Shown here in pieces: positions 6,885 to 40,169 of a stretch of DNA of 64,000 bases (position 1 is the first letter of the stretch; the number at the start of each line of letters is the position of its first letter). Where the stretch lies: the NCBI GenBank assembly GCA_031763025.1, contig JASSKH010000014.1:10530563-10594562 (forward strand), read 5' to 3'. Position numbers and translations under genes: made by a program. Under the pieces are notes generated by a model that ran no database searches, was not told where the DNA came from, and saw nothing but the letters and a program-made list of their open reading frames with translations. Origin of the DNA: Macrocystis pyrifera (lineage: Eukaryota; Sar; Phaeophyceae; Laminariales; Laminariaceae).

Positions 6885-7300
6885 TTTGACCTTGTCGTGG
6901 GCATGCCGTGGCATTGCCATGGTACCGCCCATGGCATACCATGGCATCACCACGGCATACCATGGTGTGGCAATAGATTCCATGGCTCGCCGTGGGGGTT
7001 GCCATGATATGCCATGGGTAGTGCCATGGCAACCCCCGCAGCTACCGCCACGGCGCTCCATGGCAACCCCACGGAATCTCATGGCAACCCCAACGGCACC
7101 CCAATGTCCTCGGCACCTAGGTTAGGGTTGGGGTTGGGGTTAGGGTTAGGGTTAGGGTTAGGGTTAGGGTTAGGGTTAGGGTTAGGGTTAGGGTCCCATG
7201 GTATGCCGTGGAGGTCCGTGGAAAGTTCCGTGGTATGCCGTGGAAGATGCCGTGGAAGGTTTTGCCGCAGGTGGTGCCACGGCATGCCACGGCATTATTG
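6885..7300. repeat. CCATGG/CCACGG palindromic repeat flanking a telomere-type array
   Basis: CCATGGCATACCATGGCAT-type words and their one-base variants recur every 10-25 bp from 6893 to 7118 and again from 7195 to 7290. Because CCATGG and CATG are self-complementary, the block can fold in many registers. It is split in two by the TTAGGG array. Confidence 0.7.
7122..7193 (+). repeat. interstitial telomere-type repeat (TTAGGG)n
   Basis: Twelve hexamers without interruption: one TTAGGG, two TTGGGG, then nine TTAGGG. The window continues for 7 kb to the left and 57 kb to the right, so this is an internal site and not a chromosome end. Confidence 0.9.
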
Positions 7301-11802: not shown

Positions 11803-12024
11803 ATGTCGAGTGCCGGCTTCTCGCGCTTGGCGCACCCACTTGGAGCACTCGTGGTGCTCTGCTTATTCGGCGCGCAATCTGGCCTGGCCCGACACCAGAA
11901 CGCATTACAGGCGTCCGGCAAAAGCCCTCAGCAGACAGACGTCGGCGGTAAAGTGGTGTGGGTGGAGAAGAATGAAGGCGATACGAAAATTACCAAATCG
12001 AACCAAGATGGCGAACAACTCTTG
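11803..12024 (+). CDS. GH114 gene exon 1: start and signal peptide
   Basis: 74 codons, ending in phase 0 before GTGAGC. The start is followed by a hydrophobic stretch ([14 protein letters not shown]) with likely cleavage after GLA near residue 29. The mature N terminus is polar. Confidence 0.65.
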
Positions 12025-15000
12025 GTGAGCATGATGCTGCTGCGCGTTGAATCCGATCCGTGCGCTGTACCTCTACCTAAACCTGCCCAGCAATCGGTTT
12101 TCCTTCTTCAAGTAGCGGGTCGATATTTCGTGCCGTCTTCTGGGGTAGTTATCCTCGACAGTTATGTAGGTATGTGGGGGATAATTGTGTGTATCCTCTA
12201 CGCATACCTACGCGAACGACCACCAAGACTGCCATCCATACACGTCGTGCCTCTCTCTTTCTCCGCTTTCTAGGGTGCTGAGGGGGGGGATCCATGCGCA
12301 GCGGATGACTGTATCGAGTTCAAGTCTGATGAGTGGGGCGACGCAGAGGTAAACATTTTTGCCCTCGCCGACTTCGCTTTGTAGTCGCTCACAGCGTGCT
12401 TCGTTTACAAGCTGAGTTGGTGTATTGCACATGCGTCATACAGTTTGGCGGTTCCAACAGCTTCTACTAGAGCACGTAGTTTACTTACTGGCCTGTATCG
12501 ACAAACTGCCTCCGCCCGCTTCTGCCTCCTGCTGTGATAACAGTACGAAATTTATACGACGCCGCCTTCGGGTTTTACGGGAGGTCTGACCGTCAATTTC
12601 GTGGCACAGCTTGGCACTGGCGCTGCCGGTGCTGACTGGAAGGTGGATATGTATGACTTCGTCGAAAATGACGACTGGACGTATATCGGTGATCTGGCCG
12701 ACGGTGAGCTATCCACTACGCCCTCTATTTTCTCCCGTCCTTTGGGCCCGGTTTGGGCTTATCGACACCGCTGGACATGCACTGTCGTAGTCCCGCAGGA
12801 ATCGTCGTTGTTCGCGTGTCCGCCCACGTACGTAACCTGTATGTGCATAGCCGTGAGACCCTTTCCTACCTCGAATCTATATATTTGTCTCTGACACCAT
12901 CATCATCGTCACCATCATCACCAGCATCGTCACAATAATCATGATGCATGCAGACGTTGACCTCCCGTCGGTCGAGGTGTTGCCCCGGTTGGCATCCGGT
13001 GTGGCCGCAACACTTGACCCCACTTTCTTGAACGCGATACTTAGAAGTCTGTAGCGAAGGCAAAGTAACCTGCAGAGTGATAAATCCACGCCTACAGTAG
13101 TTCGTGTCCATGATCATATGCTGTCAACGTCGCCCGGGAACGATTCGCAGTAGTATATCTCGTATCGTTTTATATGCATGTCCGGAAACGCCTACATTGC
13201 GTAACATCGCCTCCCCAGAGAGCTAATACTACGATTAACCATATGCTGCATTCGTTGTTTCTCGGTGCTCATCGTGTTACCTCAGTTACGTCGAAAGAGT
13301 GGAAAGAGGTTTCCGTCCGTCTTGGTCCGGATGAAACGACCAGCAATTTCATCGACGTGAAGGGGGACGTGATTCTGGTGCGGTTAGACCTGACGTATCT
13401 GACGTTTTTATGTCTGGCACTCCCGTGTGTGTTTGCTTCGGCATCATCTACACGACGGTGGCCTTTTAGCAATTGCTGACGAAGTTGATCGCGCTGTCGC
13501 GGAGCGGGCGTGATACTGGCGTAGTGAGTGTGTGCTCAGCTCGTTTCGCGCAGGGACCTCTCATATGTGACGATGGTAGCTTCGTACTCAAAAACTAAAA
13601 AAATACGCCAATGATACCCTCACCCCCGTGCTCGTGAAACGGTCTGAAAACTTTTGCCCACTACCCCAGGTGCGGATTTATACCGAGGGCACGACAAGGA
13701 TAGAGGTGAGCAAACCTATGCTATCATGGGGGTCACTGCCAACATACCAACACGGGGTTAACTACATGAGTATGCTTTTGACCGCCTCTCTCTATCGGCA
13801 TGGAATATAACCATGTGATGACGCCGCGCCAAAGACATGGCACAAATCGTGGTACGGCCTTCAAAAAAGCGTTCGTCGGGGTAAACACATGTTGTTTGCC
13901 TGTGATCGTTTGTGCTTTGAAAATTAATTTCTTCATGTCATGCTGGTATAACAAGCATAATGTGCATCAAGACCGTGCGCAGAGAAGATACTCGTGCGAG
14001 TTGGTAACACACTTGCCGTGCCGTCACCGTAACGGGCCTGCAGCCCCTATCGCTCTGCTGTGGAATTTGACAGGAATCATACTTCCCTACCCTGTGCTCG
14101 ATATCTCCCGTTCGCACACTGTACTGAAGATTATATATCTCGACCAGGTTCAGATCTTCGGGGACGATGGCACAACAACTCCGGAACAAAATCCGGCCCC
14201 AACTCCGGTCCCAACGCCGGCCCCATCTCCGGCCCCAACGCCGGCCCCAACTCCGGCCCCAACTCCGTACCCAACTCCGGCCCCAGATCCGATCTCGCCT
14301 GCGGTTCCACCACTGGATCCAACTCCGGCAACAATCCCAGCCCCATATCCGGCCAAATCTCCGGCCCCGACGTCGGCTCCAACTCCTGCTCCAACTCCGG
14401 CTCCACTTCCGATCCCGCTTACGGTCCCATCTCCGCCCCCAACTTTGGCTCCAGCCTCATCTCCAGCCCCGACGTCGGCTCCAACTCCTGCTCCAACTCC
14501 GGCTCCACTTCCGATCCCGCTTACGGTTCCATCTCCGCCCCCAACTTTGGCTCCAGCCCCATCTCCGGCCCCATCTCCGGCCCCGACTTCGGATCCAGTT
14601 CCTGCTCCAACTCCGGCTCCACTTCCGGTCCCGCTTACGGTCCCAACTCCGTCCCCAACTCCGGTTCCAACTCCGAGTCAAACTCCGGCCCCACTTCCGA
14701 TATCGCTTACGGTCCCACCTCCGGACCCAACTCTGGCTCCAACTCCGGCCCCGACCCCGCCCCCAACTCCGGCTCCAACTCCGAGTCCAACTCCAGCTCC
14801 AACTCCGGTCCCAACTCCGGCCCCGACTCCGTCCCCAACTCCCACCCCAACTCCGGCCCCAACTCCGGCCCCAACTTCGTCGCCTGTGAAGCCCAGCGTT
14901 CGACAACGCTGGTCGGCGTTTGCTCAGTTCGTGCCTGATTGGGAAATCTGGTGAGTTGTTCTACATGCTTTGTAGAGGGCGCTGCCAGCTTTGATTGCGT

Positions 15001-18000
15001 TGCAGAGAACATTCCTATATATAAAACCTCTCGGTGACCTGGCGTAATCACTATTCAGCAAGTTTTTCAGTTTGTTTGATCCCACGTGCATGCCCTCACG
15101 CTATACTACTACAATTTTGCAACCTGACGTTTTCCTCGCACCCATGTAACATGCAATAGGAAGTCGAAGCTGGGAAATGGCGTCTGCGACTATATGGAGG
15201 AGTGTCGCACGGACTCTGCCTGCTGCTCTGCCTCCGGCGACGTTTGCGGCAACGGATGTTGTGAAGAACGTAAGCACTCGGGCAGACACACCCACTCTCT
15301 TGAGACACAAACTGCGATATTTGAGCGTGCTCTCAAGTTTTTTGTATGGCAGCCACGTACGCCAAGCGTGAGGTATGTGTGGTTGCTCCATCAGATCGGC
15401 CCCTATCGGTTTCAAAGGGGACTTCAAGGACACCTTCTTGCGTTACTCAGAAAACAAGCAACTGTACCTTTGCTGACCCTAAGATGAAACTCCACGTGTC
15501 GCCCATTTCGCTGTGTATAAATAGTGGAGACGAGGGCCAACTGTCCTGAGGACTGCTCCCACACGCTCTCCGTCTGCGGGAACGGCGTGTGCGAATCTAC
15601 CTACGACAGTGACTACCACAACAGCGGGTGAGGGTTTTTTTCTCTTTGCGTCGCTCCATCAAATGCAAGCGTTGCGAGTTCGGGTTTATTCTTCACTAGG
15701 CACCTCGTAGTCGAGTCATCCAGACCAGCTTTGTACCATGCCACCCTGTCCCCCAGACCGGGCTGCGGATGAGGCCTTCACGCGTGGGGAGGCCGGGTTG
15801 GGAATCCAAATCATCGTACTTACCCTGGTTGTAGCATCGCAGTTGTATGTCGATACATGGACTGGTATCGACTTAGATAGGGAGGGGATTGCTTTATCAA
15901 GTATGCGGTTCGGGGGAACCCTTATTAAAAACATGTCCTGTACCCAACACCGGTATTTTCGGTAGGATCAAATCTAACCAGACCCCATGCGATGTTGTAG
16001 ACGATACGAGAGCGAGCAAAAGAAAGTCTCTGTCCATACTGTAGGGTGGGGGCTTAGAACCATCGCCACAAACCAGCTCCGAGGGAGTGGTGCCACGACG
16101 AAGGTTTGGTCGGAGCATCACCTCCTGTTGTCAGGTAATATACCTTTTTTGCTCACCCGTGCTACGATAGGGGTATGGTACCTTTTTTAGCTACGAAAGG
16201 GGTACTGTACCTCATTTTTACCGCGATACGGGTATTGTACCTTTGCTGCTACGAAAGGGGTACTGTACCGAGTTTTAGCCAAAATCGGTCTGACTGACGG
16301 GATTCTCAATCACTGCAACTGAGGAACTACTCAACATCGCTGGGATACCCTTCCTTCGTGTTTTACGAAAATGCTGCGATATTAGAGAGATTATACCTAG
16401 GTCATAAGAGGTTGTTCCTCAAGATGCACCTTCACGTAGTCTCGAAGCCTGTTTTCGGCGAAGTAAGAAATAAAGCGTCTCAAGCGAGGAGTCTCGGCAA
16501 ATATGGTGCACTCCCGCAGGATGCGTCTCCTCCGATGGCAGAAAACTCGCCCAGCGAACCTCGGAAGCTATGAAGACCAGTGCAATCCCGGGCAGTCTAA
16601 TATCGTATACGCATGTGCGCCTGCTGTAGTTGTTGAGCCAGATTATGAATGACCCAATCGTGCATACCCTTGCAATGCCGGCAGGTACGAAGACGAAATC
16701 ATCTGCCCTGTGGACTGCGCAGATTCCCCGAATCTTATCGTGTCGTCGTCCTCTTCGGTACGTTTGTCTGCGCATACTGCAAAGTCTGCTGTGCCCCGGG
16801 GCTTGAGTCTTTCAAACTATGTATTTGCCCGCGTAACCGAAGGGCAGGGGTGATTTTTATCGTGTACCAATATACCGCACTCTGTCTTACATTTCTGTGC
16901 TGCACAGACTACACTTTGTGACTTCACACTACAGGGTCCCAATCCCACCGTCCAATCTACGCTCGGGTAGATTCGCGGGTTCCGCACATACAATGACTGC
17001 TGTACGATAATGCAATATTACTTCGGGTAATGGGGTGAGCATGTTTTCTACTACAGCTTGCCCAGTTCCACATTCAATGGGTGCTACGTATACGAACTTG
17101 ATTTATCTTTATGGGTGCTGGGGCTGGTACACTGGCTGCGGCATCTCGTCTTGCTTGGGGATGTTCGGACGCACGTGGGCGGTAGGTTGGTTGGGGCGCA
17201 GATATTGGGTTGCTCGGTGCTGAGGGAAGTTTTCTGTGAATCTAGTGGGTGACTCTCTTCCATAGGTCAGTGAGGAAACTCCTAGCCCCGGTACTCGCAG
17301 TAGCAATGCCCCCTCGGGTTGCGAGTGCGCTTGGCACTGCATATCATCTCTCTGGAATGTGAATATCAATTCTTGCACGGTGTTGACGTACGTACGGTGG
17401 CATGAACTGATCAAGTTCCGGCGTTGTAGTTGTAGGTTTTTGCATGCGTCGAGGGGAGGCCTCCACCTCTTGCGTGTGCTCTGGAATTGCTCGCACCCGC
17501 AGCAAACCCTTGTTGCGGCAACCTTACTCCGTGGCGATGACCGTTTCACCACCCTGCCGTACAACTAGCGATATACGATACGTGCCGAGATAAAATCCCG
17601 CGCAGATTTTCTCCATAACAAAGAGGGGCGAACAAAACGGCAAGGAAGGCTCTGGAGGTACACCGCTGATATGTTTCCGTGGACGCATCGCTCGGCCTCT
17701 GTACTCTACCCGATGTCGAGAAGTTGGAGAAATTGAGATTGGGCGGGCATCAGAGAAGATGTATTGCCGTGCAGAGACTATCTGTAGCTTAACCCAAACA
17801 ACGGCTACCCGTACCACATGAATGCCTCGATCTCCTGCCCTTGCCCTCTCAATGCCGTCGTACCTCAAGTTCATCAAAAACAACAACATGGGAAACCACA
17901 TCAGTAGGATGGTTCGTACCGATTCACAGTAGCGCCTATCGTTTCCGAAAGGGTTTTCGCGCGCTTTCAGTGTACATAGGATGTTCATGTACGCATAATA

Positions 18001-21000
18001 TCTGGTGATATTGATGGTAGGCTACGAGTTGGGACCTGTTCTGTCTGCAGAGCCATTCCAGAACCAAGTACCAGGTATGACCTTGGAGCTGTGAGCACGG
18101 TGTCTTCTTGAGACGTTTCGGGGGCGTGATTTATGTTGCCTGGAAGCCGACCAACTCTTTGGCTTATTCAAAGATGGTTGTTACGAAACCGTGACCGACT
18201 GTCGAAGCAGAGACGCCCCCCCAAGAAATTACAGGCTGTGCTTACCCATACCTCCCGCGCTGTGGGCGTTATGTCTCCACCCCGCTTCGCCCCGCTTTAG
18301 ACTGGTTCATGCTTCATGAGCGACGAAGACTGCGACGCTGTATGCGGTGACGGCATCTGCAGTGGCACCGACACCTGTACCGTGAGTCTGCATCCGTTTG
18401 GGAAGGTCACAGCCACCGGAGTAGAAATTGCGCTATAGGCTGTGCTTGCTGAAATTAGGTTGGTCATGTCATTGTTTGTGCTGAGGCAGTATTGAAAAGT
18501 GGTGGAAGCTGGAATCCCTACGGCTATGATGACGTTTCTCTTGCACGGTATCGAAGCATGCATCATCATTCACCCAGGAAGGCCCCCATCTTGCCCCCCC
18601 CCCCCCATGAGTTGGATCATTTGTGCGAGAGTACTCCCATCTGTTTCTGGAAGTGGCTACATCGGAAATTAATTTAACTCTTTGAAGCTGCCATCCATAT
18701 GCAAGTCCGCCTCTCAAGTGGTTCCTAGTAGGATGCATCTCACCCTTCATGCGACTCGCCGGACACCCCACGGCGCTTCGCGCTTGGTGAAAGCAACGTC
18801 TTCCTGGTCGGTGAAAACCCGACATGCTCCGTCCCGGCATTGTAGTGATGCGAATGTCTATGGTCACACGATTTCGGCCATGCTTGAGATCGAGTACATC
18901 TGTCCTATCGAGTACACCCCCCCCCATTCATGGAATCTATGGTCCAACGGCTATGGCCATGCATGATAATGAGTACACCCCCCTCCCCCCCCTGCCTTCA
19001 CTGCCTATCGAAAACGACCAGGAGTGTCCTCGTGACTGCGGAGAATGTGCCGCCGACAGTACTGACGATATCTGCTCCTACCCTTTCGAAGCCGCGCTTG
19101 AGGGAGCCTGCGACGGAGCGGGCATCACCAACGTTTTCACCCTTTACGGGTGCGAGCTTCAGACACGTGTTGTGCCTTAGGAGTAACACCTAGACTATTT
19201 TAATCTCCTCGCCTGCTTATAGGACAGGATCTCTGTATCGTACCCAAAACTGGTTTTGAAAAAATCTAAGGGTGAAACCCGATGAAAAATTCCAAAGCCT
19301 CAGATAGGTCACCGAATAAGTTTTGAAAACCGATAACGATTTTTCAACTATATTAGGTTGTTAAGGAGCCCGGTCATTGCCTGTGATAGTTTGGCCGAAA
19401 CGTGCTACCTCGGTCGTAGCTAGCTTCTTCAGCAGCATTTCCTTTCGTCTGTTTCTCGGTTTGACCGGCGGGAAAATTAGGCGCTGCAAAATAACCACGT
19501 TGGTTTGGACGCCCGTTGACTTGCTGCGAGGAAAGGACATGAAAATTAATAATTTTTAGAGAACGGCGAGAAAGAGCGACATTGATACTCAAGGAGAAGG
19601 TGTCAACGGAAGTTGGCGGCGGGTATATATTGATTTGCTTTCCTCCTTTTATTTTCTGCGGGTCAATACATTGTGCCGCACAAGTGACGGATGCGGGGAC
19701 AATGTCGCGTTCTCTGGCTTAGCCCGTTTACCTCATATTTGCCCACACAGTTTTTGGGAAAACTACTTAAACATTTGTGCGTGGTGTTCTTCTGTGGGCT
19801 TCAAAGGGTAAGCTCTACCTCATAAGCCGTGGTATCGAAGACTACAGTAGCATCTAAGCCGAAAATAACCACTACACCGATGCGCACTTCGTTAGGGTAT
19901 TGTCTCCTAAAAAACAAATATGATAAAGGAACACTAACCCAAGCCGTTGTTTGATTACTTTCACCCACCCATACCCCCACATATACTGAGTGGGGTACCA
20001 TGTATGTTTTGGACCACCGTAAAAGTGCGAAAAACTTAACGTTTGTTTTTAGTATACGATACTTCGGAGTATGTACGTACGTAGGGTATGGATGGGTGAT
20101 ATTTTGCGACGGAATTCCGTCCATACTGTTCCGTTTGCTCCCACCTGCGTGATAATACTATCCCGCACGCGTACATGATATTGGAGATTGTGTTCGGTTG
20201 TCTACCTTCGCCCTATGTCTTTATCTATGCCACCGAAACATCATTTCGGCTAACATCAAGAAAAACAATAACCACTGTACGTACTACGTTCGGGTATTTG
20301 CAGCGGTCGTCCGTGCATAGTCGAGACACTATTTCACACCACCTCAGCGTTGTTCGGTCTCGTTAAAAGCCGTCAACACATTGCCACCCCCCCGTAACTC
20401 CTCCGATGATTGAATGCGTTGGATGTGCAACAGGGAAGACTATGCGACGATCGACAACGCTGAGGTGGCAGGCTACGAGTACAGCGACTTGTCATGTACC
20501 TCAAGCGAAACTTCTGTGCCCGCTGGCTGGCGCCTCGCTGATTGGGACGCCGATGTTGCCTATGTAAGTGGGTATTCCCGATATATTATGGAGCCGGACC
20601 CGCACGTCTAGTTGGGTTGGGTTGCAAGTGTGTTCGGGTACCCTCTCCAAAGAGCGCGGCACAGAGGTGTATAGAGATTAACCCGCCCGCATCCGACCTT
20701 GCAGACGCTGGCCAAGGATGAAGATGTGGTATTTGAGACAGGATGCTTGGTGTTCGCCGAAGGAAACGCCGTCAGCACCGATGACGGCCTGCAGGTGATG
20801 TGATGGGGTGTGGTATGGTGTGATATGATGTGGTATGGTATGATATAATGTAATGTAGTGTGATGCGATATGTAATGTAACGAAAAGTGATATGTACTGT
20901 AGTGTAAAGTGATGACATGCCATGTCATGTGAGATGTAATACTATGTAATGTTGTGTTGTGTGATGTGAGGTGATGTCGTATGCAATTCTCACCTTTACT

Positions 21001-27000: not shown

Positions 27001-30000
27001 CTGGGCCCATAATTGTCGGGGTCAAGAAGGCAGATAATTACCCGTCTCTGCAGATAATAACACATCGGTCGATGCGATGCACGGTGCCCACGCTTCAGCG
27101 CTCGCTGCCTGTGCCACGTGTGAAACGCTCCACCTCCGCTCCACTTCCGATGTTGAATCAGAATTCGCGAAATGCCTAATCCAGAATTCACGAATACCTT
27201 GCCCAGCGAGCGACCGCTGTACAGATGCAAGTCACGGGCCCTGTCAATTCGCGTGTTCTACCAGTCTGCCAACACCGTTCCGTGCGGTTTCCACTTGGTA
27301 GTCCCACAAGCGCGATCAACCAAACAGTTCCCGCTGCTGCTGTCGAAGTGAGTTCGTATTACTTACTGATACGTCCCCAGCCAGAGAATATGAACCATAA
27401 CGCTTAATTCTCTCTACAACAATAAACTGTAGATTATTCTCATATCGGTTCCCGATCCCTAATAATATTTTCAATTTTCGGGAGGAGAGGAGAGAGCAAG
27501 AGACAAAGCACATGAAGATAGTGTCATCATCGCCCCCAGATCCATGCCCTTTCTTTATGTCCTTTTTATGCGCCCTATCATACGCGTATGCCCACTTCAT
27601 GGCCGAAAACGGCTCTGCATGTTGCCCGGGTGCCCACAGGTACCCGATAGATCTAAAAAAGTTCGGGTATATCGGGTACTCGACGGGGTACAACTATAGG
27701 TTATACATAGGGGGGTACATGGTTTTCGGACCCATCGTCGGGTCTGATTGTTCTGCACCCCGTCATATCGTTTTGGTTACTTTCAACAGGTTCTCCTATC
27801 CCCGGGTCAAGCGCAGAGGGGGAGCTATACGACGTGGACATCTACGATATCGACTATTCCTACTCGTCAAGCGTTATCGCTGATCTCCAGGCCAAGGGAA
27901 AGAAGGTATGCTCCCCTCAGCGCCTAGACCGATCGTGTCTGAAACAGGTATCACGCTCTCCAGGGTGTACCCCGGTGCGTTTCGCCGCGGTGCCATGTAT
28001 CGCGTGCCGGCGTCAGCAGTGTTGCTCAAAGTTCCACTGCAATAGAGGTTCGGGGAGTGCCGGGACCTCGCTCAAGGAGCTATTTACGTCACCCTAACAC
28101 CGACCGTGACAAACTACGAAGGGGTAACCCGACCAATAATCATACAGCCTAGGCAAACGCGAATACTATTATTCCGACGATCGAGTTCGGTAGCTCCCCA
28201 GTGCCAAAGGAGCCCCGTCAGCAAGAGAGGTTTTGACGTACTGTATGCAAAGTCGCTCCCTAGATCGACGCGTGTGTGCCTTGTAGGTGTACAACATAAG
28301 ACCTAACTATTATGAGGCTCCTCACGTCACCTTAAGGAGCTCTACACTATCGGTATTGGTAAGTCACCCAAAACCTGGTTTAGAGAGAAAAGCCCGAGTA
28401 AAACCCGATGAACAATCTCAGAGCACGGGTATACCACGAGTCGTTTAGTAACACACTGCTCGAAGGAGCTCCGCGTGCCGTTCGTTTTGGCGTGTTCTTG
28501 TTCTCCCAACTCCTGGACCATGCCCAGCAGCAGATAACACCTACGGTAACACGCTAATAGTGTGTTTTCACTTTTATTTTGTAAGGTGATGTGCTACATC
28601 AGCGCCGGTACCTCGGAGGACTTCCGCGAGGACATCAACCTATTCCCCGCCATCGCCCAGGGAGGAATTGTAAGTTCGTGTGCCGCTCGTGACTCTCCCC
28701 ACGGCAGAGGGGGTGTACTTTTTTCCTTGTGAGGCAATGTCTCCCGGCCGATTAGTATGGCAACTATTGTTACGGGGGACCATAAAAAATGGGACCTAAA
28801 TATTGATAGTAAAAATAACGAAATATATAGGTTTTTGGAAGTACCGTAGGTCCTATTTAATATGGACCCCCGTAATAGCATACCGGCATAGCTGTTTTGG
28901 GACTGCTTAGCGCATAAGAAAGCTGACCGGATTGGGCGAACAACGTTCTTCTCGGCCGCGTCTCGGGTCAAATATTGAGCTCTTCGCGCGAGAAAATCAG
29001 GAAATGAGGCAACACCCCTGCTGTGTCATTGGGTCTCGTCTATCTTCCTCGTGATATGTATTCAGGCCTGGGAGAGAGCACCTTTACCACACATCAGTCA
29101 TGGCGTGGAGAGAAGGATCGATCCTGACCTTGTTGACGTGTTTCTGCTTGTACGGCGAGCACCTTCTGCCGTGTGTGTTGTGCAGCTGTTCGCGTGTGTC
29201 AGATGATTTTTCGAACGGGGGTGTCATACGCTCTCGCGTAGCCACAGGGTTTCCCACACATGTTCGAGCTTGGGCTTCTTTAGAGATGGAAACGATCCAC
29301 AATATATATGTATATATTTTTCTGGGTGGCGATACTGACGAAGTTCGGACACTTTGTCCAGTTGCAATACTACTGAAGTGTGCAGATGTTTTGCTTTTCT
29401 CGCAAGGGGATGCGGGGTGCCTTGTGCGCAATCACGTGCTAAGCTTCGCAAAGCATCGTTTTGAACGGTAAATTAGTAAAGCTCAACGCTAAAACCCTTG
29501 TCCACGTTGTTCACCCGATATCACGATGCATACGTTCGACTCGCCCCGCCTAATTACTACGTAGTGACGGACAAGTGAGTGCCAGGCATCAGGTATAAAT
29601 GAATTATATTACGCCTGCCTGCCTGCCTGCTTGCCTGCCTGCCTGCCTGCCTGCCTGCGTTAATTTTCTGATCTCCTGATTCGCGGTTTTGACTCTGTTC
29701 ACTCGATGACGTTCGATGTCAAATGGGGGCATGCTCCGCGACTGATCTTGACTGGCCACACAGGTGTCTTTCGGTGAAGGCGACACGGTGAGCTTCGTTT
29801 TGATACTAGCGTTGCATATTCATTTATCCGTTCCGCGGTTGTTGCTTGTTCGGTGTTTTGGTGTCGCGGGGTCGCGGAAGACTCTCGACTCTCTCTCCTT
29901 GACCAGTGCACTATATCAGCAGCAAATATGTATTGCGAGGACTTCACAGCTTTTTTCTACTCGAACGCTCTGATCGTAAAAACCGATTACTAATGGCGTG

Positions 30001-33000
30001 CGTCTTTCATGAGCACAAGAAAAAGTCTCCGGTATTAACGTGGTGGATTCCCAGTCCCACCTGCCGTGTTAAGCTGCGATCGAGTAATTTGATGCTTTCT
30101 GGTTGGCCTGTTTTTGCTGCACGAACGAAGATCACTACGTACGTGAACCGCTCCTAGTTGTTTCATCTCTGGTGAATTTCCTGATGTAGTAGATTTTTCC
30201 GGCTGTCCTACCTTACCTGTTTTTCCTGGGCGGTTTTTTTTTCCGAAAGAACAGAGGAAAATCAAGGAGCATAACACCCTTGCCCCCCTCTCTGGCTAAT
30301 GAGTAGTATATTGCATGCAACGATTTTGCCCATTTGAGGGAAAGTTATTTTTATTCGCGTAAACGCGTTGAATCCAGTATTGTTTATAAAAGCCTATGTC
30401 AAGGCCAAGAACAGAGCGATGTACTACCGCTCGAATTACTATCACGCTGGGCCCCCCCTCTTGCGCACTGTGGGCGTAAGACAACCTTTGTGAGGCTTTG
30501 GACGATACAGCGAGCTCCACAAGGCGTCCAAAGCCTCTCAAGCCGGGTCACCAAATGGTGTGCGATATTTGTTCAATGTCTTCAGGACCTTAAATTTACG
30601 CCACTTGTCGGGTCGAACCACAACCATGACGGCCGTATATAGAACACGTAAGATGGTTGCGTTGTAGAACCAACCACGCGTGGACCGCATGTGGATCGCG
30701 GGTGCCTATTAGTGCGTAGATGATGTTGTGCCGGGCTCCCTCTCAGTGTTTGCCCCTCCTCTTGCGAACGACCAAAACCAGTTTGACGACGAGAACTGGC
30801 TCGACCTGCGTCGTCTGGATGTCATCGCGCCCATCATGCTTGAACGGCTTGACATCATGGCCGCCAAGGGCTGCGACGCCGTGGAGTGGGACAACGCGGA
30901 TGTATACGTACACGAGGTGACCGTTGAACGCTACACTTTCCGTTGAGCATTTACTGCGAGAACCGATCGGCCGATGAGATTTGAACTCGCCACCACAAAG
31001 ACGATTCTTTAAATGCGTTCAGAACACACAGCCAGTATCTGATACTAGGTATTCAGCACCGGGAAACTAGGTAAGTAAACACATTTTCCGTCGTGAAACG
31101 CGCGGGGGCACCACTATTTACGGCACACCTTACGAAGGGCAAGGTCAGCATGTACGTGTTCCAGACGAAATGTGCTGCTGCGGAAGGTAGCATCGAAACA
31201 TTGATGGCCTCCTCGTTAGCGGAGCTCTGCACCGCCTCGAGAAAAATAGCAAACTATGAAACCTACTACTACGAACGCATTCCCACGGGCTTGGTATCGA
31301 ACGAACGGTATTGTAAGGAAATAAACACGTTGGCGCCAAATACATTGGGTACGAGATCCTCACTTGAGTAGCCCGCTTTGGGGCCAGGGAGAAATGTGTT
31401 CGCTCAAGAGTGCCGCTCTAGTCGAACCACGACCCAGGAAAACTCTCATAGCTCTCATAGCTCTGGAGGCGCTCATCTTCAGTTAGACAAGATTTTGAGC
31501 AAAGAGAGACACGATTTTTCCACGTACAGATGCCTCCAAAATATCTAAAGGAATGTTTGGATTCTTTTATGTTGTTGATCAACCAATATTAGCGTGTGAG
31601 CTTACAGACCAAGACAGTAGAGTACACACTCCGTACGGTCACGGACCCAACATTAGGCTGATGGGGACTGTGGTGCAAACAACCGAATACAAAATGAGCA
31701 GATGCGTGGGCCGTGAAAATGCCGGAGCAGCCCCCCACATACACATGCAGCATGCAACTCGAGACACCTTACTTTTCATATTCGTTACGCACCAAGTCCT
31801 TGTCGCCGGTCATTCGGCCTTTCTCGTTGTAGGCTGTATATGTCACAAATTTGCAACGATCTGGACGGTGGGCGCTTCGTTTTGTTTTAGCTGCATAATA
31901 CGCTGTCGCATGTCAACTTACGTGTTATCTTGCATCACCCCACCACTTCCGAATACCTCCATAAATGAAAGCCTTGCGCTGTACTGTAGTACATATATGT
32001 AAAACGAAATGATACAGGCTTTTGCGAATGACCCCTTCGAGCCGACGAGCGTGCCATCTTTTTTTATGTGGTAGGCGGGCCTGTCCGACGGCGAGATCAG
32101 CTTAAGCCTCCAGATAGCATACAACGCCTGGATAGCCGCGCAGACTCATGCTCGAGGTATGGGGGTGGCGATGAAGAACAACAACGAGGCCGCGGCCTTC
32201 CACGTGGCTGACTACGACATGGTGGTCAACGAGGAATGCTGGATTTATGGAAGCTGCCAAAACTACGTAAGCACACGCTTGCAACAGTCACGCGCACTAC
32301 AGAAAGCTGCGTCCTTCGTGTTCCATTCAAACTACGTTTACTTATATATACATATATATGCACTACTTAGAGGTTGCGCATAGCCTTGCCAAGGGTTGGG
32401 ATCATCATTTTTAAATGTACCCAGCCATTGAGGTTGATCATAGGGTGGCGCAATAACTATCACAATCAAGCTGGGGGGTTCTGTATAGAGCTCAGTCTTC
32501 GGTAGCAGGTCAAAGCTACCGCATCACTGCGGACTTTCTGACTCTACGAAAGCAGGGAGTCCATTAGTAATTGGAATCTGAGCTGAGGTTAGGTATCATA
32601 CTGTACCCCTCTCACGTTAGCACGTTAGGATGGCTCGAGGTTGATTATGCACTTTCGGCTTCCCCCCGGGTCTTCTGCACTACGATAGCTGGTTGTTTAC
32701 GGCAGCTGCGTGCAAGCTTGCGCGTAAATACATGCAGTCGCATACACTTTCACGCACGTTGTTTTGGCAAATGTCCCGCGAGTGGCATGCTATTAAGCAA
32801 GACCACATAACTCAAGCATCACTTGCACGCTACTCTTGGGCCTCTTGCACGCTACTTCAACACACTGCCTGGGAAGATGAGGCGGGGATAAGTGGCATTT
32901 CCCGCCCCCCACCGTAGAACGGCTTGGGACTGATTAGGTACTTCCGTTTTCCCTGAGCTGGCACCGCGCTTTGTTCAACAGAAATCTTCACCATCAATCT

Positions 33001-36000
33001 ACCGGTGCCATGTGTTGTAGACTCATGGGTTCCTCGCGGTATGGTCATTCTAGCGGTGCTAAGCTAGACTCGTGGACTTGTCGTGATTGGGTTTCACCAG
33101 TGGTTCTAGATAAAAAGCTTTTAAAACTGCAGTCCCGTTGTCGAGACAAACCAGTCAAGTTTAGAGTACCGTTTCCCCTAAACGGGACTGCCGTCCAAAC
33201 AGTTTCCAAACGGGTCAAGGGACTCCTGGCAACACGTTCTTTCCACTCAGTTGTCCCCTTGCGGATGCAGTGATTTGTTCTACGCAGCTCCGCCAAACTT
33301 GGCGTCATCGCACGTTAAGCAATCTCTCTTAAAATACTTGCGGTCGTCTCATCTTTTTCAAAGTATTGATGTAAATGCTCACAAAAGGTGGTCCGACTGA
33401 TCGGTATTACGGGGGTCCATAGTTAGTAGGACCTATAGTATACATAAAAACCTGTGTATTTACCTACTTTTGCTAACAACATTTGGTCCTGTTTACTATG
33501 GTCCCCCGTAATAGTGCATAGTTTCCTTCGTTGGAGAACCGGCAAATCGAACCTCCCGTATTTTACTCGTTTTCACTTGCTTGGGGGCCGCCAACTGTAA
33601 GCACTTCACTGAGACCAAAAATATGAACCGCCGAACGTGGCGAAATTGTAAATGGTTATCAAGGTGTTAGCGAATGAGGTGACATCACGTCGTCCGGTGC
33701 TCAGTGTACAAGTACGTACACCGGTATGAACTACTGCAGTACATATTCCTGGTAAGTGCTGTCCAGCGTTGCAGCGACAGCAGCCTATCTCTGCCATTGC
33801 CTATTGCCTATCAAGCTGCAGATACAAGCGAACCGCCTTTCCCGTGCGTACGTAGGCATTTTTGTTATGTTTGCGGACCAGACTTTCCAAGCATGCCTCC
33901 TTCTCCTTAGTACACATCTGACCATCCACACCGTGACGTACGTTGTTGTCCATTCGTCCGCGCGTTCGTTCGTCCTCAGTGGCCGTTTATCAAGGCGAAC
34001 AAGCCGATTCTCAACACCGAATACTTCACGGCCAGGTGAGCTTATTTACGCCCCTTGTTTAGGTTCGTTTACACAGGCCTCTGGACGGTTGCCCCGCGGG
34101 GTCGCCTAGATGTGAAACATGGCCTCGCTTCCCTGAGCAACTAACAGCAAACCTCGCACAGAACATAGATTCCAACTTCATGATAGGGATATTTTGAGGC
34201 AAACATGTTCCCGATCTTGCAATTGTTTAGCTCATCTTGCCGGATGGGACTCGCATGACCCGCATGATAGTGCGCATGTTGCCTTGGTTGGGTCTGCATC
34301 ACGCAGATCCTGCGCAACCTCCGGCAGCGGCAGGTGGAGGACTAGGTTGTCTGCAGTACATAGATCAGATAGGTCAGATAGATCAGATAGATCATGATCT
34401 GTCTGTGCACGGTGAGGAAGTATTGCCCCGTCGGGTCTCCTGAATCACAGATTGACCCGTTTCTCGAGAAGACATCGTCAGGGGGGAGGAGGGGGGTACA
34501 GCGCCCTGCATATATCACGTTTGTTTGGCGCATCAGGGTCAGCGTCTTTGCCTCCGATTCGTCCAGGCCAAATACCAATACACGTAGAATAGAAACCAAT
34601 AGGAACAATGGAGATATACTCGTACAAGGAAACAATAGTGTGAGCCGGGCTACGGCAAGTGTTGGTTTTGCGCATTTGACCCTAAAAATGCACGTATCCC
34701 TGAGCACTATTCACATTTTTTCGTCCCATGCGCTGGTACTGCTTCGAAGTACATCTACCGTAGTACTCAGATCCAGGGCAAGTCATGATTCTGTTCTCTC
34801 CTCTCCCCAGTACGGTTCGTGCCTTGCTTTGTTATCGCGAGAGAGAAGACTGCAACCCTTTCTTCCCTCGTCAACCTGCGTCTAGATACATAGCTCCTCG
34901 GCTGAGAGTTAACCAATATATTTGCATCTGCGATGCATACTATAAGAAACCTGTTACGTGCTCACCTGCAGTAGTCTCAAGGTACGTTATCGAAAATGTC
35001 TGCGGGGCGTGCTGTCGCTAACACTATTCATCAGGAGGTGGTCACTGAATTCGGCGACGTCTACAGAGCTCAAGCGATGAACCTCCGAAAAATGCAGACG
35101 TCGGACCAGCAGACAATCGGTTCTCAGTCGATGATCTACAGTACCTGTAGATATTTCAGGGATTTAGCTATTGCCGATCTTGCAGGCTCTAGCTCATGTT
35201 GCCGATTCTGATCCCGAATAATCTGCATTGATCTACAGTAATAGCACACGTTTCCTGGGTAAGATCTGCCCTATAAGGCAGATCCTGCACAGCCTCTCAC
35301 AACGGCAGGTGATCAACCGTACGATCTACAGTAGATAAATCAGATAGATTATGATCTGTCGTGCTACGACAGGGCATGCCTTGAATTGAAGGGCATGTCT
35401 TATTGCAATTTTCGGCACCAATATGTCTTGACTGGTGATGGGACTCCTCAAATGTGGACCTACTGTACTCAGTACACTGTACCCAAGTACCGTTTTGGTT
35501 CGTGAAAATGTTTTCGATATGGGCCCATAGTCCATGGAATTGCCCACCATGTTGAGGGTCCACTTTTTTCTCGAATCCGTTTTCTGGGTATACTTCGTAT
35601 GCCCAGTCTTCGTCATGCGAGGAAAGCCTTGGAAAGTCGCAGGTGCACTCCTATCGCACAATGCCTCCTCGCGTACCACATACAGTAATATATTCAGTAT
35701 TGTATGGACTACTTAATACTGGTACTGTTTGCATGAACTAAACCAACGCCGGCGGCGTGCCCAAGAGCTTCTCTCTGCAGGCTGAGGACGCCGGGAAAGA
35801 AGGAAACTCGCGGACCCTCCTTTTTCGTCGGGTGGTGCCACCCTACAGAGTTCCACGATAGGGAGTAGCACGTTTCGGCGAAACGCAAACTAAAACCGAC
35901 TGCCAGGGCTCCTTAAGGGCACCAAGTAACTATGCGATATCGCCGAAACATTATGTATTTTGCGTTATACAGCAGTGTCGCTGTACACCTACAGTAGGCC

Positions 36001-38458
36001 ATGGAGTTATTTATCTTGCTTTCGTTGTGCTGTCATAGGAGGGGAGCTCTGCAAGTGAGTAACCTCGGAAAGGTTGACCCTCCTGAGGATCGCAGTCCCG
36101 TTTATGGACAATCTGCAGAGAATTGAGAGTGGTGTTTCACAAAAGACCCCACTGCAGTCCTAAAAGAGTTGAGAGCTACTACCCCTACCGCAGAGCGCCT
36201 CCTTACATATTTTCCAAGCCCTCCCCGTGCCTACCGTTTTCGTCACACCAACTACTACTGCTGTTCCCTCGGCTTCTGGGTATATATAAATATTGTTTCG
36301 TCTGACCCCATCAACACGGCACAGGTGCATGTACTGTACCCAGGCCAACCTCATGAACATCTCCACCATCAAGAAGGTTCCAGACCTCGACTCTTGCAGG
36401 GTGAGCTGAGCAGAAAAACAAATTGTCTACGGGTACGTCGTATGTGGTGTTCTCCTTTATACTGACTTTCAACTCTTCGAAGGCATCACGCTTGGGGTTT
36501 TGCAAAAATCAACAACTCTGAAGGTAGCACGCTTGTTGTTAATGTTCAACCTTCAACGCTGAAGGTATCGCGCTAGCTTTGTCGGCGAAACTTCAACCCT
36601 CAGAGCGTCGCGCACGCTTTATTTTTGTGCAAAGCTCCAACTGTTGAAGGTATGCCACTTCTAGTTTTATTTTTTTTTTTTCGAAAGTTGCAACTCTGAA
36701 GGCGATCTGGGCCTGAGTGCGACGTGCTCTTTGGTGTAGGCCTGTCGAGTCGAGCCACGGCATGGACCTTCTACTTCCATGCCCTCCCCGAACCTTTGCG
36801 CTTGCGGTTGACCGTCGTGACAACATGTTGGGATCACCGTGATAGTACTACGGGCTGACGCTCGATAGCGCAATCACCTTCATTGACGCTCCTGGCAACC
36901 CCTCCCTCCCCCAGCACATCGAAACAGCGTCATGAGCGCCCAACGGTTGGAGGGGCCTCTATCGGGAGTAGGAAAGGTGCTCGGTCTCGAAAGGGATGCG
37001 TGGTCGATGGTTAAATGACTAAGGCAAGCAACAGATGAGTACGCCCCCCCCCCCCCCCCCCCCCCCCCTTCCCTATATCCTGTGCTCCGCCTCGAAAGCG
37101 ATGAGTGGTCAATGGTCAAATAACTAAGGCAAGTATTAAAATAGTACGCCCTACCCCCCCCCCTCCTACATCTCCTGCGTTGCCGCTCCTGGCCCCCTCC
37201 CCCCTATTCCATCCCGGGTGAAGATGGACTGCAAGACCAGCTTCTCTAGTAGCCCGTGCATAGCTGCGTCGGCGAAGGGAGAGATAAAATACCCGATCGA
37301 CTGGACCGTCGACGGCGCTGATCCTATGATGAACAAAGATTGGTGTCCCATGACCCTCAACGACGACGCTACCGAATGCGAGGCAGAGAGGTAAAAATCT
37401 GCGGTGTTGCGGTTCGGCTTTGGCCGCTCACTTCTTTCTCGCCCTCTGTTGTCTATAGGGTTAGGGTGTATGCGCATGGTGTAGAGCAATTCCGCGATAG
37501 AGGGGTGGCGGGCTTAGTATTTGTTTAGTTCATGATATGACGAGCTCAACATGTCACCCGAAACATCACTGCCAAGAAATGTGTTTACGCAGCCCCGATC
37601 AAGCTTTGCGTGCGCTACTATTCGCGTAATGTGTTGAGAATGTAAGTGGTTGAGAATTTCCGGCTGAGATTTAGTACAACTTAAGATCTTAGAGCCGAGC
37701 GTTTGTGCTCGGCGAGGGCGTCACTCTAAATCCTACCACAATAGCCTTCAAGAGCCTGTGGTCAACGCTGACATCAAAATAAGCCGCCAGCCTTAGCCAA
37801 AGTGGTATATTATTAACTGCTGCCGCGTACTGCCATTAGTCCTAGAAGTAATCTACTATTACGGGGGTACATAGTTAATAGGACCTATGGTATACACATA
37901 AACCTATACATTTACCTATTTATACTAGCAAAATTTGGTCCCGTTAACTATGGACCCCCGCAATAGTAATAGTAAAAAATATCGCACGTGCTAACCTGTA
38001 TTTTTTGGTTACTGGAGAAACTCAACCGGCCAAAAAATGTTGGCCCAACATGCGTTCAACCTCTGCCTGTGCGTCTCCTTTTTCTCGCGGAGCGGGTAAT
38101 GCACACCCTCCTTTTACCATTCGATAATTTTGACTCGATCTTGAGCAGACGTGTAGAGTTGTCCCCGTGACTCTTTGAGGCACAGAACTAAGGTCAAAAC
38201 AACATAGACGAACGTTGTTTATTCTGTCGGGTGCGGGCATTAATCCGCTACTGTAGATCGCCCTGCAGCATACATGTCGTAGCTTTTTTGTTGTCGTTGG
38301 TGAAGAGGATCTTTGCGCGTTTGACCCGTTCGCTGTAGGGAAACGTACGTCCAACTGACAATGCATCCGCTCGACCGCCACATTTGCCCCTTCTCGCTGC
38401 TCTTCCGCTGCAACTCTGTGCTTTTCCTCTCGGCAGATTTGCCGAATGCGACCCGAAT
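11803..38458 (+). CDS. secreted modular GH114 family glycoside hydrolase, 24 exons, 3' end open
   Basis: Twenty-four exons joined by GT-AG introns keep a single frame for 1140 residues. Order: signal peptide (about 1-29), beta-sandwich-like module (100-215), Ala/Pro/Thr linker (about 220-455), CGNGxC...CPxDC modules (about 470-600), unassigned modules (600-760), EGF-like module (792-818), GH114 domain (about 834-1076), Cys-rich tail. GH114 landmarks visible are [14 protein letters not shown] (864-871), CYISAG (891-896), [17 protein letters not shown] (955-966), YNAW, MKNN and VVNEEC (1019-1024). Known family members cleave alpha-1,4-linked galactosamine polymers outside the cell; the true substrate here is unknown. 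Two genes rather than one cannot be excluded, but every exon phase agrees. Exon 24 ends on a donor; a GTGGGTTACTGA last exon at 39825-39836 is possible but weak. Confidence 0.75.
12274..12348 (+). CDS. GH114 gene exon 2
   Basis: 25 codons, phase 0 to 0, acidic, with two Cys (DPCAADDC). It has a pyrimidine-rich acceptor (TTTCTAG) and a GTAAAC donor. Confidence 0.6.
12544..12703 (+). CDS. GH114 gene exon 3: beta-sandwich-like module, part 1
   Basis: Encodes a Trp-rich stretch with the pattern W-x-V-x-M-Y-D-F followed by W-x-Y-I-G-D. It resembles the accessory beta-sandwich modules seen beside secreted glycosidases; this is a pattern judgement, not a named family. Ends in phase 1. Confidence 0.6.
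12896..12945 (+). repeat. CAT/CATCAC microsatellite in intron 3
   Basis: Degenerate (CAT)n and (CAC)n run between GACACCATC and AATAATCATG. Confidence 0.7.
13286..13377 (+). CDS. GH114 gene exon 4: beta-sandwich-like module, part 2
   Basis: Encodes [10 protein letters not shown] and [10 protein letters not shown]. The donor at 13378 is GTGCGG; using it lets VIL join directly to VRIYTEG of exon 5, giving the expected G-x-V-x-V-R pattern. A later donor at 13395 is an alternative. Confidence 0.6.
13670..13705 (+). CDS. GH114 gene exon 5
   Basis: A 36 nt exon encoding [12 protein letters not shown], phase 0 to 0, with a pyrimidine-rich acceptor (CTACCCCAG) and a GTGAGC donor. It completes the strand begun in exon 4. 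Confidence 0.55.
14130..14950 (+). CDS. GH114 gene exon 6: end of beta-sandwich module and Ala-Pro-Thr-Pro linker
   Basis: Opens with [16 protein letters not shown], then about 235 residues of (Ala-Pro-Thr-Pro)n with Ser, Val and Leu variants. The DNA is a CCAACTCCGGCC-type minisatellite. The linker resembles hydroxyproline-rich or O-glycosylated spacers of extracellular proteins. The final codons ([18 protein letters not shown]) are non-repetitive. The donor GTGAGT overlaps an in-frame TGA, so failure to splice would truncate the protein here. Ends in phase 2. Confidence 0.7.
15160..15269 (+). CDS. GH114 gene exon 7: Cys-rich module
   Basis: Encodes [12 protein letters not shown] and [10 protein letters not shown]. 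Phase 2 in, phase 1 out. The first copy has Leu where the repeat normally has Cys. Confidence 0.7.
15525..15627 (+). CDS. GH114 gene exon 8: Cys-rich module
   Basis: Encodes NCPEDC, then VCGNGVCE. It therefore closes one CGNGxC...CPxDC unit and opens the next. Phase 1 in, phase 2 out. Confidence 0.7.
16136..16270 (+). repeat. tandem repeat, about 30 bp period, in intron 8
   Basis: Four units of the form GCTACGAAAGGGGTACTGTACC with T-rich spacers; the third unit is diverged (CCGCGATACGGGTATTGTACC). Confidence 0.75.
16685..16757 (+). CDS. GH114 gene exon 9: Cys-rich module
   Basis: Encodes [15 protein letters not shown] and a short Ser run; completes the second unit. Phase 2 in, phase 0 out. 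Weak further linker exons (16936-16969, 17266-17320) could be spliced in after it, but phases do not favour them. Confidence 0.6.
18301..18381 (+). CDS. GH114 gene exon 10: Cys-rich module
   Basis: 27 codons including [20 protein letters not shown], the opening half of the third unit. The acceptor follows CCCCGCTTTAG and the donor is GTGAGT. Confidence 0.7.
19022..19149 (+). CDS. GH114 gene exon 11
   Basis: Starts with ECPRDCGEC, closing the third unit, then an acidic Cys-containing segment ending NVFTLYG. The donor GTGCGA at 19150 is chosen because it alone gives the phase needed by the next exon. Reading on reaches a stop at 19178-19180. Confidence 0.6.
19205..19425 (+). repeat. dispersed repeat in intron 11
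   Basis: The part 19240-19300 (CCCAAAACTGGTTT, GAAACCCGATGAA) matches 28375-28425. The part 19368-19425 (AAGGAGCC, GAAACGTGCTACCTC) matches the inverse of 35855-35935 and the right half of 14-242. Confidence 0.5.
20434..20563 (+). CDS. GH114 gene exon 12
   Basis: Encodes [19 protein letters not shown] and [16 protein letters not shown]. Donor GTAAGT. No family name is known to me; the single Cys and aromatic pattern suggest a small extracellular module. Confidence 0.65.
20705..20794 (+). CDS. GH114 gene exon 13
   Basis: 30 codons, phase 0 to 0, separated from exon 12 by a 141 bp intron, the shortest in the gene. Encodes [17 protein letters not shown]. The following intron starts directly with a TGTGATG simple repeat. 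Confidence 0.65.
20795..20985 (+). repeat. TGTGATG-type simple repeat in intron 13
   Basis: Almost only T, G and A on this strand, built of degenerate TGTGATG, TATGATG and TAATG words, starting at the splice donor itself. Confidence 0.75.
22535..22686 (+). CDS. GH114 gene exon 14
   Basis: Encodes [20 protein letters not shown] and ends [11 protein letters not shown], Cys-rich and extracellular in character. The start is set by the phase-0 acceptor after TTGCCAG; an upstream acceptor near 22480 is out of phase. Ends in phase 2. Confidence 0.6.
23256..23530 (+). CDS. GH114 gene exon 15: EGF-like module and start of the GH114 domain
   Basis: Encodes [18 protein letters not shown] and GLWTGPGC (EGF-like spacing), then TTWEWQIDG, the usual beginning of GH114 domains. 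Acceptors at 23255 and 23264 are both in phase, so the first residues are uncertain. Confidence 0.7.
23849..24722 (+). repeat. direct repeat pair in intron 15
   Basis: The segment 23849-24065 recurs at 24527-24722 (landmarks GAATTGCGTTGTTT, CAAACGCATCTCCCTCCCTT, CGGACGACTGA, ACCATGGT). Confidence 0.7.
24225..24515 (+). repeat. 290 bp direct repeat in intron 15, copy 1
   Basis: Matches 27182-27475 along its whole length with scattered substitutions (CCCAGCGAGCGACCGCTGT, CCACAAGCGCGATC, CCCGCTGCTGCTGTCGAAGT). It directly abuts the preceding repeat pair, so the intron holds a composite repeated unit. Confidence 0.8.
25490..26140 (+). repeat. about 100 bp tandem array in intron 15
   Basis: Six units marked by GTGAAGATTATCTCTCACCC near 25501, 25601, 25697, 25800, 25903 and 26055. 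Each unit also has TTGTATTTACGCTGAACC and GAGTCGATCGTTT. The period is 96-103 bp, with the last unit lengthened to about 150 bp. Confidence 0.85.
27182..27475 (+). repeat. 290 bp direct repeat in intron 15, copy 2
   Basis: Second copy of 24225-24515, about 3 kb downstream and 315 bp before exon 16. No ORF or RNA fold was recognised in it. Confidence 0.8.
27790..27905 (+). CDS. GH114 gene exon 16: GH114 domain
   Basis: Follows the largest intron (4259 bp). Encodes [13 protein letters not shown] and [11 protein letters not shown], the second strand-helix unit of the GH114 barrel. Phase 1 in, phase 0 out. Confidence 0.8.
28586..28669 (+). CDS. GH114 gene exon 17: GH114 domain
   Basis: 28 codons beginning [13 protein letters not shown], matching the family's (V)CYxSAG strand. 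Donor GTAAGT. Confidence 0.85.
28770..28878 (+). mobile_element. family M1 element, copy 2 (intron 17)
   Basis: TTACGGGGGACCATAA at the left, ACCGTAGGTCCTATTTAA and GGACCCCCGTAATAG at the right. Confidence 0.8.
29613..29658 (+). repeat. (GCCT)n microsatellite in intron 17
   Basis: About eleven GCCT tetranucleotides with one GCTT interruption, about 105 bp before microexon 18. Confidence 0.9.
29764..29787 (+). CDS. GH114 gene exon 18: 24 nt microexon
   Basis: Eight codons (VSFGEGDT) between CACAG and GTGAGC, phase 0 to 0. It supplies the short loop that lies between the CYxSAG strand and the WLDLR motif in GH114 proteins. Skipping it would also keep the frame. Confidence 0.5.
30782..30916 (+). 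CDS. GH114 gene exon 19: GH114 catalytic core
   Basis: 45 codons with [30 protein letters not shown] and a phase-0 GTGACC donor. The acidic Glu and Asp of VEWDN sit where the family has a conserved acidic pair. The acceptor CCAG before TTTGAC is chosen for phase. Confidence 0.85.
32075..32266 (+). CDS. GH114 gene exon 20: GH114 catalytic core
   Basis: 64 codons with [27 protein letters not shown] and MVVNEECW, the best matches to GH114 in the window. The NEEC motif contains a family-conserved Glu. Confidence 0.88.
33405..33514 (-). mobile_element. family M1 element, copy 3 (intron 20)
   Basis: ATTACGGGGGTCCATAG at the left and CTATGGTCCCCCGTAATAG at the right: near-perfect terminal inverted repeats. 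Opposite orientation to copy 2. Confidence 0.85.
33980..34035 (+). CDS. GH114 gene exon 21: GH114 domain
   Basis: Encodes [18 protein letters not shown], the penultimate barrel strand with the family's N-x-E-Y. Ends in phase 2. Confidence 0.8.
34200..35370 (+). repeat. diverged direct repeat pair in intron 21
   Basis: 34205-34410 resembles 35172-35370 (CGATCTTGCA, TAGCTCAT, GCAGATCCTGC, CGGCAGGTG, ATCAGATAGAT, ATGATCTGTC). A shorter relative lies near 38745-38850, beyond exon 24. Both copies end in an ATCAGATAGATCAGATAG-type simple repeat. Confidence 0.6.
36325..36400 (+). CDS. GH114 gene exon 22: GH114 C-terminal segment
   Basis: Encodes [20 protein letters not shown] then LDSCR, the end of the GH114 fold. 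Phase 2 in, phase 0 out. Confidence 0.75.
36465..36705 (+). repeat. about 58 bp tandem repeat in intron 22
   Basis: Four to five units carrying CAACTCTGAAGGTATCGCGC followed by a T-rich spacer ending GCAAA. Begins only 65 bp after exon 22. Confidence 0.65.
36960..37165 (+). repeat. tandem duplication with long C tracts in intron 22
   Basis: Two units of about 100 bp share CTCGAAAG, GATGAGTGGTCAATGGT, ACTAAGGCAAG and AGTACGCCC. Each ends in a C homopolymer, about 27 C at 37045-37070 and a shorter run at 37154-37163. The first tract is an error-prone spot for sequencing. Confidence 0.7.
37224..37390 (+). CDS. GH114 gene exon 23: Cys-rich tail
   Basis: Encodes a Cys- and Trp-containing tail ([37 protein letters not shown]). 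The acceptor follows a long C-rich pyrimidine tract. Ends in phase 2 at GTAAAA. Confidence 0.65.
37857..37966 (-). mobile_element. family M1 element, copy 4 (intron 23)
   Basis: ATTACGGGGGTACATAG at the left and CTATGGACCCCCGCAATAG at the right, same orientation as copy 3. Confidence 0.8.
38437..38458 (+). CDS. GH114 gene exon 24: 22 nt microexon
   Basis: Completes one codon and adds FAECDPN between CTCTCGGCAG and GTAAGT. Phase fits exon 23. The next exon was not firmly identified, so the C terminus is unknown. Confidence 0.45.
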
Positions 38459-39572: not shown

Positions 39573-40169
39573 TAGATCCTGTTCAGAGAATCAAATTCAA
39601 GACATTGAGCCTGGACACCAAATTGACGTTTCTTGCTAACACCGGGCGCCCACTATACCATATGTTTGCAGTACACGTATATAGCTCTAGGGGAAAGGGC
39701 GTTGCTCTCCGCTATTGTAAGCTACCGTTTGGTGAGAGCCAATTGATATCCCAAATATCTATTATATCGTGGATCAGTCTCTTGTTCGCTTTCCCTTGAC
39801 CTTTGTGTGCTTTGACGCCTGCAGGTGGGTTACTGAACGAAGCCCCGACTGGTATAGGGCAGCCTGTACTATTGTAGTGCCAGGTACCGTAGCGTAGTGC
39901 AAAGTTTCGAACCGATCAACTACTACAGTAGTCGGCTCTTTCAGCCAACGGCCTCCTGCCCTCACCGTCTCCGGGGCGGTGAAGGCCTTCGTGGTCTCTG
40001 TTCAAGGTCGTCCCTGTCGATGCCTCAGACGAGCCTTGCACAACCGATTAGAGCTTCTTCGTACAGGAAAAAAGCGTCGTCGAAACCAGCCACATCTTTG
40101 CGTTTCCATGTTGTTTGTGCTCGAACGTCCAGAGACTGCTGGCAGTGATTTTCCAAGAATGCCGTTTGG

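Follow-up and report, generated by a model that had tools for sequence, protein, structure and literature searches.

A long-form GH114 gene in the kelp Macrocystis pyrifera, predicted to encode a secreted modular glycoside hydrolase that carries a conserved module of no named family and altered residues beside the active site

The nearest solved structure to the kelp protein described here is Ega3 of Aspergillus fumigatus (PDB 6oj1 and 6ojb; E 1.7e-29 for 6oj1), an endo alpha-1,4 polygalactosaminidase of the glycoside hydrolase family GH114. According to PMC12054363, the nucleophile of Ega3 is Asp189 and its acid/base Glu247, and GH114 has an acidic, negatively charged crevice that suits a cationic substrate. 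A second fungal member, FsGH114 of Fusarium solani (PDB 9ep6; E 2.8e-14, 33% identity to the kelp domain), belongs to the same family and has the same catalytic pair. A first-pass annotation of the kelp locus held GH114 to be known mainly from bacteria and fungi, which is too narrow. PMC11468063 counts GH114 as one of the largest GH families in brown algae, with about five genes per genome, and also records members in chlorophytes, fungi and bacteria.

The gene lies in a stretch of 64,000 nucleotides, hereafter the window (G000:C194:10530563-10594562), in a genome assembly that we searched over its 537,376,219 bases in 223 sequences. GH114 gave 18 exon-level matches on seven contigs of this genome. 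Compared with Ega3, the kelp protein shows ~36% identity over 198 aligned residues and keeps the catalytic Asp and Glu, but it has ~800 residues of other modules, and the Pro before the nucleophile and the loop-tip Trp154 of Ega3 are replaced by Trp and Phe. Within the same genome, three GH114 loci share the Pfam family and the catalytic motifs of this long form but differ from it in having an EPDN motif and a loop Trp, and in being only 33-35% identical to it. These three are located on one strand within ~56 kb (G000:C193:7749855-7805995), and likely form a tandem cluster of their own, separate from the long form. Belonging to GH114 is not in itself new for a brown algal gene. What sets this one apart is a secreted, modular build that includes a conserved module without a family name, together with altered residues next to the active site; for its module order, a limited literature search, supplements excluded, found no published description.

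Exon ends were set by hand at phase-compatible GT-AG sites and then compared with the paralogs. Judged from its sequence, the window gene is real and is one intact gene of Macrocystis pyrifera. The coding span covers positions 11803-39836 of the plus strand (28,034 bp) and comprises 25 exons, whose 3315 coding bases translate into 1104 residues. All 24 introns (141-4259 bp, median 908.5) have GT-AG borders, their phases are compatible, and a single frame remains open from the ATG at 11803. Exons 1-5 occupy 11803-12024, 12274-12348, 12544-12703, 13286-13377 and 13670-13705; exons 6-10, 14130-14950, 15160-15269, 15525-15627, 16685-16757 and 18301-18381; exons 11-15, 19022-19149, 20434-20563, 20705-20794, 22535-22686 and 23373-23530; exons 16-20, 27790-27905, 28586-28669, 29764-29787, 30782-30916 and 32075-32266; and exons 21-25, 33980-34035, 36325-36400, 37224-37390, 38437-38458 and 39825-39836, all on the plus strand. 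Intron 15 (4.3 kb) contains a tandem repeat of ~98/207 bp at 25490-25945.

Exon 24 (38437-38458, +), which encodes RFAECDPN, ends at a donor and not at a stop: position 38458 is an internal splice donor, with AAT followed by GTAAGT, and the donor is kept in both paralogs as GTGAGT at the same site. The last exon (39825-39836, +) has 12 bases, GTG GGT TAC TGA, encoding VGY and a stop, and is an element common to the three copies; CAG followed by GTGGGYTACTRA occurs once per copy within 6 kb 3' of exon 24. Reading exon 24 on to a TAA at 38546 was rejected because the copies diverge right after CDPx, all with a donor there, and because the common last exon sits downstream in all three; the protein used as the Pfam and tblastn query, including the recount, still carried the tail of this read-through. 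A longer start of exon 15 was also discarded, since the chosen acceptor completes the cysteine pattern of an EGF-like module and similarity to the paralogs begins at about that point. The first-pass annotation was right about the start at 11803, about a one-strand exon chain whose GT-AG introns agree in phase, and about a single frame carrying GH114 near the C-terminus, while its 24 exons, end at 38458 and 1140 residues give way to the 25 exons, end at 39836 and 1104 residues of the present model. If its residues 834-1076 are the segment 794-1036 here, the difference in length sits upstream of GH114.

Protein searches of the same genome retrieved two more ordered exon sets. Copy B (C194:10790529-10811528, +, approximate start) is on the same contig, ~220 kb downstream of the window gene (copy A), and copy C is at C212:8814877-8839471 (-, approximate start). 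Exon order, strand, modules and the VGY-stop last exon are the same as in copy A. In tblastn searches (E up to 10), 23 of the 24 exons had a match in the expected order and position in copy B (exon 5 missing) and 22 of 24 in copy C (exons 2 and 5 missing), counting plus-strand rows outside the linker in lists that also hold chance rows elsewhere. Similarity of exon 1 to its counterparts is ~38% in B and ~29% in C. At the DNA level (blastn), 32 blocks are shared by A and B, 23 of them on exons, 6 on a short repeat and 3 elsewhere, and exons 2, 4, 24 and 25 have no such block in copy B; A and C share 42, with 20 on exons and 22 on the short repeat.

Exons 2-5 and 7-24 of both paralogs were modelled with phases imposed, in search intervals set from the tblastn and blastn matches, exons 1 and 6 being left without boundaries. 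When phase was left free, the best-scoring exon in these preset intervals kept its phase at both ends in 38 out of 44 cases, and lengths were the same as in the window gene in 26 out of 44. The six misses were exons 3, 5 and 11 of copy B and exons 9, 13 and 17 of copy C. B11 and C17 each show an apparent frameshift, one exon per paralog, which could be real decay or assembly error; C13 reflects a tie of two acceptors, and the ends of B3, B5 and C9 are poorly defined. Exon 3 was matched a single time in the first 50 kb of the window but two times in each paralog, where exon 6-like starts were doubled as well. The N-terminal block that carries the GH114_assoc domain (see below) thus looks duplicated in copies B and C.

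Ratios of dN/dS were computed with the Nei-Gojobori method on 665-711 codons, from which exons 1, 6 and 25 as well as B11 and C17 were excluded. The overall values were 0.30 (A-B), 0.39 (A-C) and 0.17 (B-C). The GH114 exons 16-24 gave the lowest values of the three exon groups (0.20, 0.24 and 0.09, respectively), and exons 2-5 gave 0.58, 0.83 and 0.50. Purifying selection on the catalytic half is clear, and the N-terminal domain, at 0.50-0.83, is weakly constrained.

The same comparison bears on whether the window holds one gene or two. Its long introns, up to 4259 bp, and an exon 6-7 junction that no domain spans would be compatible with two adjacent genes read as one, that is, a GH114_assoc and linker protein followed by a separate Cys-rich GH114 enzyme. 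Order and strand are, however, the same in both paralogs, and a conserved DNA block contains the end of exon 6 together with its donor. Moreover, exon 11 runs from the Cys-rich repeats into the unnamed module, which exons 14-15 in turn connect with the EGF-like module and the start of GH114; since these exons span module borders, the four parts belong together. With two colinear paralogs under purifying selection, we consider two independent genes very unlikely. The exon 6-7 junction of the single gene, as modelled, rests on colinearity in the three copies. The first-pass annotation had also read one gene, in agreement with the exon chain and with the exon order and strand of both paralogs.

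The window and the gene copies also contain repeated and mobile sequences. A nearly palindromic, MITE-like repeat of ~111 bp is present at 33405-33513, 28770-28878 and 37856-37974 and, by eye, at ~46490-46590. It was matched in all three gene copies, and a genome search that scored 40 out of 3299 first-look candidates gave at least 57 matches. Positions 7120-7194 hold 12.5 units of GGTTAG, a rotation of TTAGGG, which we take to be an interstitial telomere-type array. Translations examined by eye revealed fragments resembling polyproteins of copia-type retroelements at 43851-44255 and 59467-61025 on the minus strand and of a gypsy-type retroelement at 50862-51963 on the plus strand. A tandem array of many 72-bp copies, open in several frames, extends over 61372-63464; a minus-strand frame of 620 residues (61198-63060) adjoins a copia-like polyprotein frame at 60015-61025.

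The modelled protein begins with a hydrophobic segment encoded by exon 1 (11803-12024, +). In a 19-residue Kyte-Doolittle scan, hydropathy peaked at 1.58 at residues 6-24, the only segment above 1.5, the next best reaching 0.92, and the C-terminus was not hydrophobic. Residues 6-24 look like a signal peptide. The same simple hydropathy scan found no hydrophobic C-terminal or internal segment that could serve as a membrane or GPI anchor. The surface anchoring previously suggested for this protein is, therefore, not borne out, as the strongly hydrophobic stretch is limited to the N-terminal signal peptide.

The signal peptide is followed by a GH114_assoc domain (PF14741, residues 87-191, exons 2-5, 12310-13693, +), which matched with an E value of 6e-10 and 39.8 bits, above the cut-off of 22, and stands N-terminal to GH114. 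The Pfam entry already names this domain as a partner of GH114. First-block pieces of the paralogs also matched PF14741 (1e-5 for copy B and 2e-8 for copy C), while their two shorter second-block pieces gave no match to it. A frame-by-frame search for the domain returned 0 matches in the kelp genome and none in the control genomes either. Exon 3 on its own scored only 13.7 bits. Exon 6 then encodes a Pro/Thr/Ala linker (residues 209-455, 14169-14909, +), with 105 Pro, 43 Thr and 34 Ala in 247 residues. Exons 7-11 encode Cys-rich repeats of the form CGNG/CGDG...CPxDC (~residues 473-605, 15170-19063, +), with 21 Cys in residues 470-605, for which no Pfam or NCBIfam match was obtained.

Between these repeats and the catalytic domain lies a module of 146 residues (606-751, exons 11-14, 19064-22666, +) that is 70% identical to its counterpart in each of the two paralogs. 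None of its three members matched a Pfam family (E up to 10), and the best PDB match had an E value of 0.96. Searches of GTDB genomes with two peptide patterns did not retrieve it, by a method insensitive enough to have found only two Campylobacterota GH114 loci. An EGF-like module follows (residues 751-779, 22664-23436, +), split over exons 14 and 15, with the pattern C-x3-C-A-N-G-G-x-C...C-x-C and six Cys in residues 751-793. Its profile matches are below the curated cut-offs, both for EGF_Teneurin (6e-4, 20.2 bits versus 24.3) and for EGF_2 (18 versus 22.1). A Cys-containing tail lies C-terminal to GH114. The architecture initially described for this locus, with an Ala-Pro-Thr linker, CGNG...CPxDC repeats, an EGF-like module and GH114, was supported as far as it went but overlooked GH114_assoc.

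The GH114 domain itself (PF03537, residues 804-1035, exons 15-22, 23509-36391, +) was detected with an E value of 8.3e-53 and 179.4 bits against a cut-off of 27, over profile positions 1-228 of 231, so the family assignment of the first-pass annotation holds in a domain search. Asp922, encoded together with Trp921 at 30887-30892 (+), aligns with the nucleophile Asp189 of Ega3, and Glu983 (32231-32233, +) aligns with its acid/base Glu247. The net charge of the domain is -22, which is suggestive of a fit to a crevice for a cationic substrate, and the neighbouring modules are acidic too. We compared 16 GH114 domains: those of copies A and B, the three other kelp loci, two from Campylobacterota, seven plasmid-borne bacterial ones and two fungal ones. 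The plasmid-borne domains were drawn from 10 out of 19 plasmid records, three further records of Streptomyces californicus being left out.

Both catalytic acids are present in all 16 domains. Immediately before the nucleophile, A, B and C have Trp (C as read from its exon 19 only), and the 14 other sequences have Pro, Ala or Leu. At the loop position of Ega3 Trp154, Phe is found in A, B and one bacterium, and Trp in 12 others; FsGH114 likewise lacks the loop Trp, having Tyr there (Tyr119/Tyr121, PMC12054363). Copies A and B also share a three-residue insert at this active-site loop. Of these changes, the Trp ahead of the nucleophile and the Phe in the loop suggest that specificity has shifted. 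Alternatively, the long form may be a protein of GH114 fold that is non-catalytic or of changed chemistry, either lectin-like within the matrix or hydrolysing some other glycan, and the Trp of the three long genes, together with the insert and the Phe of A and B where 12 out of 14 others have Trp, could be read in that way. We regard it as unlikely, given that both catalytic acids are kept in the long form, as in every domain compared, and that dN/dS is lowest in the GH114 exons.

The long-form domain is 37-42% identical to the bacterial, 33-36% to the fungal and 33-35% to the three other kelp domains. This near-equal distance indicates that the long form did not branch off recently from those kelp genes. 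A small tree of the 16 domains, in which the placement of the kelp trio had a weak support of 0.600, carries no weight here. The identities also weigh on a more conventional explanation, in which the gene is a plain CAZyme of a kind already listed for these algae and is distinguished by no more than its species-specific linkers. The GH114 count reported in PMC11468063, about five per genome in brown algae, and the presence of GH114_assoc in Pfam both speak for it, and we see it as a realistic possibility, if somewhat short of an even chance. Nevertheless, the domain is just 33-35% identical to those of the three other kelp loci compared, and neither the CGNG repeats nor the 146-residue module has a Pfam match.

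Our preferred reading is that the window gene probably encodes a secreted, modular GH114 glycoside hydrolase, endo-galactosaminidase-like, that would act on the kelp matrix or on microbial biofilm. The modelled protein combines a signal-peptide-like N-terminus, GH114_assoc, the linker, the Cys-rich repeats, the unnamed module, the EGF-like module and a GH114 domain with both acids, in line with the secreted multi-module enzyme originally suggested. Once exported, it may reach the cell wall or the surface mucilage, where the GH114_assoc, Cys-rich and EGF-like parts would hold the enzyme on matrix glycans or proteins, the linker serving as a flexible spacer, probably O-glycosylated. The GH114 domain would then cleave chains that contain galactosamine at internal alpha-1,4 links, Asp922 serving as the nucleophile and Glu983 as the acid/base. 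Such chains could belong either to the matrix of the alga itself or to the cationic, galactosamine-containing polymers of fungal and bacterial biofilms. To our knowledge, no galactosamine polymer is known in brown algae. As the active-site neighbours depart from the family norm, the substrate may differ, and the initial choice to name none was fair.

A more speculative proposal, which we put forward tentatively and deem somewhat improbable, is that the three long genes represent a GH114 lineage of their own, built for a glycan of the matrix or of biofilms that is new as a substrate of this family. Their Trp and altered loop would set the specificity, and the 146-residue module and the CGNG repeats would make up a novel unit, binding glycans or proteins, by which the enzyme docks in the brown algal wall. 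A conserved secreted GH114 form with extra modules offers a concrete protein to express and assay, and a conserved 146-residue module without a family is now singled out. The main interest of the long-form gene is its substrate, which would reveal either a galactosamine-containing glycan in the kelp wall or an algal enzyme aimed at microbial biofilms.
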